From Polystyrenella longa (lineage in GTDB: Bacteria; Planctomycetota; Planctomycetia; Planctomycetales; Planctomycetaceae): a stretch of DNA of 64,000 nt. Each line of letters opens with the position of its first letter. Positions within the stretch are counted from its first letter, which is position 1. A program made the translations under genes and the position numbers. Under the pieces are notes generated by a model. The model saw only the letters and a program-made list of their open reading frames with translations, did no database searches and had not been told where the DNA came from. Below, in pieces: positions 15,345-16,637 of this stretch. Location of the stretch: contig NZ_CP036281.1 in NCBI RefSeq assembly GCF_007750395.1, forward strand, positions 2,999,001-3,063,000. The letters run 5' to 3'.

Positions 15345-16637
15345 TTACATCGCACGTAAAAGTGCAGCAACGCTCTGGCCGATCTGAGTTCGGTTGACGC
15401 TAAGTGCAACTGGTGCCTTCATGGTATGTGGCTCGCCATGAATGACATTCAACCGGCAACCCGGGTCGGGATGGCAGTAGTTCAGCGTCTGCGGCACTTT
15501 ACCGTAATGTAAGGCGAGAATACTTCCCGCCAGTTCCACCGCACCACTTCCCGCGTCGAAGTTACCGAAGTAGCTTTTCAATGCAGTGACTGGAATCTTG
15601 ATGGTGTCGTCGTTAAAAAGGCGGTGGTAAGCCCGAGCTTCGACAAGATCATCTTGCAGGGTGCTTTTACCGTGCGCGTTGATGTGGCCAATTTCCCGTG
15701 GTTCAATTTCGGCTTTCCGAATGGACTGTTTCACTGCTTGTACAATTCCGGTACCCGGCCCGCCGTTCATTTCTTCGTTGCCATCGCAACCAGCGCCGAC
15801 GCCCAGGACTTCAGCATAGATTTCCGCGCCCCGTTTTCGAGCGTGCTCGTAGTCTTCAACAACAAACACAGCGGAGCCTTCACCGACGACAGTTCCCGTT
15901 CGATTGAAGTCGAAAGGACGGCATGCGGACTTGGGATCTTCAGCCCCTTTAGCCAATAACTCGAACAGGCTCAGTTTAGCGATGTCAACCGGATGGACAT
16001 TGGAACTGCACGCACCGACGATCATGCAATCGGCAGCGCCACGTTGAATGGTATAGATGGCTTCATTCAGCGCGAGCAATGCAGACGATTCGCGTGAAGT
16101 AATGGTGTTGTTCGGTCCACGCGCATTATGTTCGATGGAGACGTGACAGGCAGCCATATTCGGTAGCTGTTTCAATAACCAGAGGGGGAACATCTTGCCC
16201 ATGCCTCCTTCACCCCAACGAGTCATTTCGAACTCGTCGTCTTCGTCTACACAGCTGGAAGCTGCTTCGGAAAGATCGTCCGGTGAAGTGGAGATGCGGC
16301 CAGCACCAAAGACCACGCCCAACCGGTCAGGAGCGATGCCGTTATCTTTAAGCCCCGAATCCTTCATCGCCAAAGAGGCCGCGGCGACGCCAAGTTGAAT
16401 ATCGCGAGACATCGTCTTCAAGAATTTGTTATGCCGAACAAATTCTTCGGGGTGGAAGTTTTTGACTTCCGCAGCGAGGTTAGTCGGCAGATCGGAATAC
16501 GGCAATGAAGTGAGTCGGTCAATTCCCGAGGCACCTACCAGCAAGCTATTCCAGAACTGGTCCCGCCCGATTCCGATAGGCGAAACGACTCCTACGCCAG
16601 TGATGACGAATCGTTTTTGATGCTTCCCAGCCACCAT
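15345..16637 (-). CDS. Beta-ketoacyl synthase homologue lacking the catalytic cysteine
   Basis: The thiolase fold of KAS II (FabF) is complete over 430 aa: FVITGVGVVSPIG at the N-terminus, PFDFNRTGTVVGEG, INAHGKSTLQDD with the first catalytic His (H322) and the KS lysine (K354). The nucleophile elbow, normally TACxSG, reads TSRESSA, so aligning from the conserved GP (174-175) puts Glu183 where Cys should be. The second catalytic His of the KSxxGH motif is Asn359 (KSYFGN). It cannot be an ordinary condensing enzyme. Chain-length factors (KS-beta) and decarboxylating KSQ domains also lack this Cys, but use Gln. No acyl carrier protein or active partner synthase is adjacent. Convergent with scpB. 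Confidence 0.85.
   Translation of the reverse strand: MVAGKHQKRFVITGVGVVSPIGIGRDQFWNSLLVGASGIDRLTSLPYSDLPTNLAAEVKNFHPEEFVRHNKFLKTMSRDIQLGVAAASLAMKDSGLKDNGIAPDRLGVVFGAGRISTSPDDLSEAASSCVDEDDEFEMTRWGEGGMGKMFPLWLLKQLPNMAACHVSIEHNARGPNNTITSRESSALLALNEAIYTIQRGAADCMIVGACSSNVHPVDIAKLSLFELLAKGAEDPKSACRPFDFNRTGTVVGEGSAVFVVEDYEHARKRGAEIYAEVLGVGAGCDGNEEMNGGPGTGIVQAVKQSIRKAEIEPREIGHINAHGKSTLQDDLVEARAYHRLFNDDTIKIPVTALKSYFGNFDAGSGAVELAGSILALHYGKVPQTLNYCHPDPGCRLNVIHGEPHTMKAPVALSVNRTQIGQSVAALLRAM

Follow-up and report, generated by a model that had tools for sequence, protein, structure and literature searches.

A cysteine-less ketosynthase-fold protein of Polystyrenella longa, probably a chain-length-factor-like subunit encoded apart from its presumed catalytic partner

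Introduction

Chain-length factors (CLFs) carry Gln at the position of the catalytic Cys of ketosynthases (KS). KSQ is likewise a KS fold with Gln for Cys; it keeps both His residues and is part of a loading module. The closest described systems to the protein considered here, P0001 of Polystyrenella longa, are the KS/CLF heterodimers of type II polyketide synthases: actinorhodin (1tqy), ishigamide Iga11-Iga12 (6kxd), anthraquinone AntD-AntE (6smp) and aryl polyene ApeO-ApeC. In these, as in P0001, the KS fold lacks the Cys and belongs to a paralogue of a catalytic KS. The available text of PMC8358021 describes the ACP of the Iga11-Iga12 system as contacting the CLF.

The ACP contacts of FabF have been placed in two regions, region 1 with Lys65, Arg68, Lys69 and Thr270 and region 2 with Arg127, Lys128 and Arg206 (PMC7138838). 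According to the same paper, in the part available, most contacts in FabF-AcpP come from the monomer that is not crosslinked to the ACP; the legend of its Fig. 3 names no monomer for the individual residues.

Cys-less FabF paralogues of planctomycetes were described by Rattray et al. in 2009. In Rhodopirellula baltica, RB3714 has Asp and RB4527 has Glu at the position of Cys163 (PMC2649909, Table 2). Three further paralogues, from Kuenenia stuttgartiensis, have Val, Phe or Ser at Cys163 and lie in suspected ladderane clusters (PMC2649909). The available text of that paper proposes no partner-subunit role for the Cys-less paralogues, and no statement of such a role for these planctomycete proteins was found in the open-access literature searched. 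A 2023 survey, as far as its text is available, names Planctomycetes among the phyla with KS-CLF pairs; a KS was required within 2000 bp (PMC10132072).

Results and Discussion

The P0001 gene and its surroundings

The window is the stretch of 64,000 nucleotides of P. longa DNA that was analysed, and positions given without a prefix refer to it. The gene of P0001, here called KSb1, occupies 15345–16637 on the minus strand, as do all the P0001 features below. It encodes 430 residues, begins with ATG and has zero internal stops. Its designation as a Cys-less KS-fold gene draws on the ORF, Pfam, the tree and the structural model. Both Pfam domains, ketoacyl-synt with 132 bits and Ketoacyl-synt_C with 83 bits, exceed their cut-offs. 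The NCBIfam FabF model TIGR03150 gives 322 bits, short of its cut-off of 493.75, so P0001 falls below the curated FabF score.

The predicted structure, with a mean pLDDT of 93, retains the double-thiolase KS fold intact. Its best fold match is T. thermophilus FabF (1j3n_A; Z 61.7), with 404 residues aligned over the whole chain. In sequence P0001 scores 239 bits to FabF 1j3n, 183 bits to the actinorhodin KS and 127 bits to the actinorhodin CLF, and is thus closer to FabF and to the actinorhodin KS than to that CLF. In the PDB, the KS entry 9s5h contains two chain types; P0001 matches both, and one of them is among the matches listed for the catalytic ketosynthase KSa described below. This entry is absent from the best 50 rows of each fold search, and the papers searched do not mention its code.

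Nonsynonymous divergence of the gene is low. In comparisons with G018, L068 and L069, pN is 0.04–0.05 and pS is 0.76–0.78; the values for G018 and L068 are identical, and these are probably one genome. Because pS is saturated, a dN/dS ratio is not computable. Strong purifying selection acts on the gene. The initial annotation of this DNA, which pointed out the missing Cys, had argued that the loss was selective and not a matter of general decay, and the intact frame, the intact fold and the purifying selection bear this out.

It had also remarked that no active synthase or carrier protein stands alongside. Locally this is correct: neither a KS nor an ACP gene adjoins P0001 among the ORFs of the window, six of which were searched with Pfam. 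It does not extend to the genome, which encodes both KSa and an ACP elsewhere. Conserved neighbours were sought in 12 loci, namely 11 KSb1 loci and the window, with 6.5 kb on each side. KSb1 itself and its antisense shadow ORFs being set aside, no gene family occurred in more than two of the 12. About 1 kb immediately upstream of the P0001 gene (16638–17674) has no ORF of at least 80 aa and no Rfam match, and Rfam gave no match at gathering scores across the window.

Active-site residues of P0001 and its orthologues

Alignment with FabF and FabB of E. coli MG1655 places Glu183, His322, Lys354 and Asn359 of P0001 at Cys163, His303, Lys335 and His340 of FabF. Glu183 (codon 16089–16091) lies in the nucleophile-elbow motif TSRESSA (residues 180–186; 16080–16100). 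The first His (15672–15674) and the Lys (15576–15578) are kept, and Asn359 (15561–15563) takes the place of the second His. The initial annotation had read all four positions in this way from P0001 itself, and the alignment upholds it. The gating Phe of FabF is gone from P0001, which has VNRTQIGQ (residues 414–421; 15375–15398) at the gating loop NSFGFGG; Phe400 of that loop is kept in KSa. The segment PLWLLKQLPNM (residues 151–161; 16155–16187) includes Trp153, equivalent to FabF position 133. This Trp is present in 118 of 118 sequences of KSb, the Cys-less group to which P0001 belongs, and the position is variable in KSa. We take position 133 to face the acyl pocket of the partner.

A KSb1 orthologue is present in 52 of 61 genomes of the family, and a KS match at E 1e-60 in all 61. 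Orthologues were assigned by bit score, borderline rows being settled by a quick tree, and the residue alignment leaves out proteins of at least 620 aa. At the nucleophile position 31 orthologues have Asp and 21 have Glu. Since all 52 carry one or the other, P0001 is not an isolated mutant. A Cys at this position, or orthologues that keep it, had been named at the outset as evidence against the reading; the former was not seen, and the latter number 0 of 52. The first His is retained in 43 orthologues and missing in nine, and the Lys is retained in 49. The second His is missing in 27, P0001 included; 25 have His there and 15 have Asn. The check suggested at the outset, whether Glu and Asn are conserved, shows conservation of an acidic residue (52/52) but not of Asn (15/52). 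The acidic residue at the Cys position is a trait of the family, and Asn at the second His is local variation. Over 65 KSb sequences, 18 columns are invariant.

RB4527 of R. baltica, with Glu together with His298, Lys328 and Asn333, has the same four residues as P0001 (PMC2649909, available text). RB3714 and RB4527 are probably members of the KSb clade.

Other ketosynthases of the genome and the family

PF00109 has 11 matches in the single 6.1-Mb contig (C1) of the P. longa genome. The housekeeping FabF is encoded at C1:2449026–2450384. KSb2, a second Cys-less KS near nusA, lies at C1:2147880–2149199 (L085:8881–10200), with Glu at the Cys position and Asn at both His positions. The catalytic KSa lies at C1:140351–141631, about 2.9 Mb from the P0001 gene. 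The search for a paired active KS elsewhere in the genome, suggested by the initial annotation, thus yields KSa as a candidate. Three other open frames, of 2760, 1684 and 810 aa (C1:3267831–3270146, C1:3920302–3922437 and C1:5660322–5662418), have two ketosynthase-domain matches each.

KSa belongs to an operon on one strand, in the order FabA-like, SDR/FabG, PP-binding ACP, FabA-like, KSa and alpha/beta hydrolase, the two FabA-like genes being FabZ-like dehydratases. With its ACP, ketoreductase and dehydratases this operon resembles reducing type II systems; it differs from them in that the KSb is elsewhere in the genome. The ACP (L084:8193–8585) is unusually long, 131 aa, with a C-terminal part past the PP-binding domain, and several other families have relatives of it at their KS loci.

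A KSa match was found in 60 of the 61 family genomes; in two of them (G002 and G036) the match is only of a second type, with 57 and 52% identity. One genome (G008), an assembly of 740 contigs, encodes both KSb1 and KSb2 and gave no match for KSa. KSb2 is present in 59 of 61. KSb1 was not found in nine of the 61, two of which are 99% complete, and KSa is still there; KSb1 is thus not an obligate partner everywhere. A further KSb-KSa pair occurs in seven family genomes (L184–L190; 11 loci fetched). Six of these seven pairs adjoin an ORF that resembles a 3-hydroxyacyl-CoA dehydrogenase by eye, and Pfam confirms the one tested. Another genome of the family (G032) has two adjoining KS genes at L192:8139–10760, both with Cys, His, Lys and His.

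Phylogeny of KSa and KSb

The careful trees were reduced from 92 to 68 rows by leaving out five outlying rows, a CLF among them, and 19 further rows. For IQ-TREE, the nucleophile and three columns on each side of it were removed from the 68 rows. KSa and KSb together form one clade (100/100) outside FabF, and each of the two is monophyletic (100/98 for both). P0001 falls inside KSb1 (100/100). The change from Cys to non-Cys arises once in the tree. At the base of KSb are sequences of family f16, which still have Cys. Both clades persist when 16 sequences are added (100/99 each).

A single actinobacterial CLF (L079), with Gln at the Cys position by eye, falls outside planctomycete KSa and KSb in a quick tree; its end branch of 2.62 is too long for its place to be judged.

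KSb-KSa gene pairs and co-occurrence

Eleven loci fetched from other planctomycete families have a KSb gene followed by a Cys-bearing KSa gene, an arrangement like that of type II KS/CLF genes. By ORF ends, eight of the pairs overlap or are less than 30 bp apart, and two are separated by 376 and 489 bp; in one of the 11 loci the KSb lies 9 bp from a KSa that a contig end cuts. FabZ-like genes lie just upstream of the pair in six of the 11 (G184, G198, G213, G113, G115 and G090), in three of them with an ACP too. The KSb of L096 has a KSa as its best hit but is placed in KSb by the tree. KSb1 is unlinked to KSa in P. longa and in the orthologous loci compared.

The two clades also occur together across the phylum. 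Among 245 genomes, both are found in 37, KSb alone in two, KSa alone in one and neither in 205, giving totals of 38 for KSa and 39 for KSb (five being f16 genomes). Fisher's test for co-occurrence gives p 2.7e-40, a value that ignores kinship. The absences are soft, because seven candidates were scored per genome, with the best matches listed. KSa (at least 530 bits) and KSb were told apart by hand, by score gaps and place. In both KSb-only genomes (G150 and G133) the KSb is at a contig end; the KSa-only genome is G228. A check of 11 less clear or unread stretches and two earlier loci yielded eight KSb and eight KSa, all as expected by tree and residues. Where both clades are present, KSa and KSb are at most 1 kb apart in 19 of the 37 genomes; they are farther apart in 15 of the window's class and in three of family f5.

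For a comparison of evolutionary rates, 36 genomes had the three KS proteins. Controls were searched for in 30 of these, and four (G009, G012, G042 and G051) were dropped, a control being missing or partial. KSb1 and KSa showed rho +0.12 (p 0.40; 26 genomes, 7 genes) and −0.19 (p 0.32; 16 genomes, 11 genes). Since gene pairs within the KSa operon also showed no covariation, the test lacked power, and the highest values in the 26-genome table involve the control NusA.

Division of ACP-docking residues between KSb and KSa

Lys71 (codon 16425–16427) and Lys74 (16416–16418) of P0001, together spanning 16416–16427, are the equivalents of FabF Lys65 and Arg68 in docking region 1. Both positions are basic in 28 of 28 planctomycete FabF and 117 of 118 KSb, and in none of 65 KSa. 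The counts were first 109 of 110 KSb against 0 of 57 KSa, and then 8/8 against 0/8 in the 16 sequences examined afterwards; as Lys71 and Lys74 were first noticed as conserved columns in 65 KSb, only these 16 test the idea. Of 57 KSa, 33 have Glu or Asp at position 65; the KSa of P. longa has Thr there and Lys at 68. In FabF, 19 positions are basic in 95% or more of the sequences; retention in KSb combined with loss in KSa is seen at 65 and 68 alone and, less strictly, at 136. Lys69 of FabF does not follow this pattern, being Val in most KSb, and docking region 2 (127, 128 and 206) is not conserved in KSb.

Conversely, Cys-less KSb has lost 26 columns that FabF and KSa both keep, including Cys163, His340, Phe400 and Thr270. 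The full set Cys-His-Lys-His, together with the gating Phe, is present in all 57 KSa sequences and in all eight examined later. FabF position 108 is Glu in 53 of 57 and 8 of 8 KSa, and Lys in the f16 KSa. Asp113, an acidic residue of Iga11-Iga12, is described as driving out the keto-acyl chain so that it can be reduced (PMC8358021, available text), and KSa Glu108 may, going by numbering only, correspond to it.

If most FabF-AcpP contacts come from the monomer that is not crosslinked, a heterodimer with one active site should show its docking residues on KSb. The equivalents of Lys65 and Arg68 are found there, on the Cys-less subunit, as in type II KS/CLF. The docking split is one ancestral event and not many independent ones. 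The tandem pairs of family f16 (L097, L054, L055 and L057) have Cys in both subunits (4/4 and 4/4), and Lys65/Arg68 and Trp133 only in KSb (4/4 against 0/4 KSa). These sequences suggest that the f16 pairs are a possible intermediate towards KS-CLF, in which the docking split came before the Cys loss.

Proposed role of P0001

P0001 is probably a non-catalytic, CLF-like KSb subunit of a heterodimeric ketosynthase, unlinked from the catalytic KSa. The initial annotation had offered a partner subunit, a decarboxylase or a binding protein, of which the first is now favoured and the decarboxylase disfavoured. The basis of the partner reading is homology, conservation, the sister clades, the adjoining genes in relatives, the co-occurrence and the docking split; formation of the heterodimer, the pairing of KSb with KSa, chain-length control and the product are what we infer from these.

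Because KSb lies outside the operon and is duplicated in the window's family, P0001 would act in trans, pairing with the KSa encoded at C1:140351–141631. The ACP would dock on the basic patch of KSb, and its pantetheine arm would enter the active site of KSa, the single working site of the heterodimer. The buried face of KSb around Trp153 may line or cap the acyl pocket of KSa and so limit chain length. With the ACP, FabG and the two FabZ-like dehydratases of the KSa operon, a partly reduced or polyene-type acyl chain might be made. In P. longa the partner of KSa may be P0001, KSb2 or both, and KSb2 could be the real one.

P0001 differs from CLFs in that it and its orthologues have Asp or Glu, not Gln, and in that there are two KSb in the genome and its gene is unlinked from the presumed partner. 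It would work like a CLF, but we do not file it as one, because Gln and linkage are lacking and the tree gave no usable position for a known CLF.

Tentatively, the family may preserve the order of events. The docking patch of KSa would have been lost first and the Cys of KSb second, after which KSb left the operon and was duplicated; one KSa is perhaps served by two interchangeable, unlinked KSb giving different chain lengths. On this tentative account, with the patch gone from KSa the ACP could not reach the active site of KSb, access to which is by way of the KSa surface, and the Cys of KSb would thereby have become useless and been replaced once, mostly by Asp or Glu.

Alternative roles

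Instead of KSa, P0001 might serve the housekeeping FabF as partner or modulator, entering mixed dimers as a dead subunit and adjusting chain length in normal fatty acid synthesis. P0001 does share with FabF/KASII (TIGR03150) the whole fold, one His, the Lys and the Lys65/Arg68 equivalents, while lacking the Cys, the second His, the gating Phe and the curated score. FabF was found in 28 family genomes; in 15 of these, by distances compared by hand, the sister paralogue KSb2 lies at most 5 kb from fabF, mostly just downstream. The rates of KSb2 and FabF covary nominally (rho +0.29, p 0.046, 26 genomes), which is not the strongest value of the table. However, the sister clades and the adjoining genes in other families are KSb and KSa, not FabF, and of 245 genomes 206 yielded no KSb, whereas 222 have a hit with the KSa profile, to which FabF also responds. 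FabF moreover needs no partner, because its catalytic residues are kept and positions 65, 68 and 69 are basic in 28 of 28. We regard a FabF-directed role as unlikely.

A homodimeric protein that binds ACP or acyl groups as a carrier, sensor or regulator, with no KS partner, would fit a gene that is unlinked and has no conserved neighbours, that keeps its docking lysines, and whose clade KSb1 can be missing where KSa occurs. Against this, KSb, considered over the entire clade, is found in the same genomes as KSa and in half of those genomes (19/37) lies within 1 kb of it, so that such a solitary role seems quite improbable.

A role as malonyl-ACP decarboxylase, supplying acetyl-ACP starters in the manner of KSQ or FabF C163Q, has little probability for P0001. 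A polar residue does replace the Cys as in KSQ, one catalytic His and the Lys are kept, and so are the docking Lys residues. The replacement is Glu or Asp in place of Gln, however, and P0001 is a free-standing protein. Both His are called indispensable for decarboxylation (PMC2649909, available text). With the second absent in 27 of 52 orthologues and the gating Phe gone, decarboxylation is disfavoured, and the KSQ-like reading was rejected on the His losses, the first His among them, and the acidic replacement.

A relic or isolated mutant heading for loss, to which the drifting His positions of KSb1 orthologues might point, was rejected as almost certainly wrong in view of a pN far below a pS of about 0.77, 52 orthologues with open frames and the columns invariant across KSb.

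Significance

The partner subunit proposed here gives a concrete role to Cys-less planctomycete FabF paralogues of a kind published in 2009 and so far lacking one. A further suggestion is that CLF searches of the kind in PMC10132072, which as described in its available text demand a KS close by, would pass over unlinked subunits. The sequences from both sides of the Cys loss provide material for replaying the origin of chain-length factors. For the family of P. longa, the KSa match in all but one of the genomes examined points to a second, uncharacterised acyl-chain system in nearly all of these genomes.
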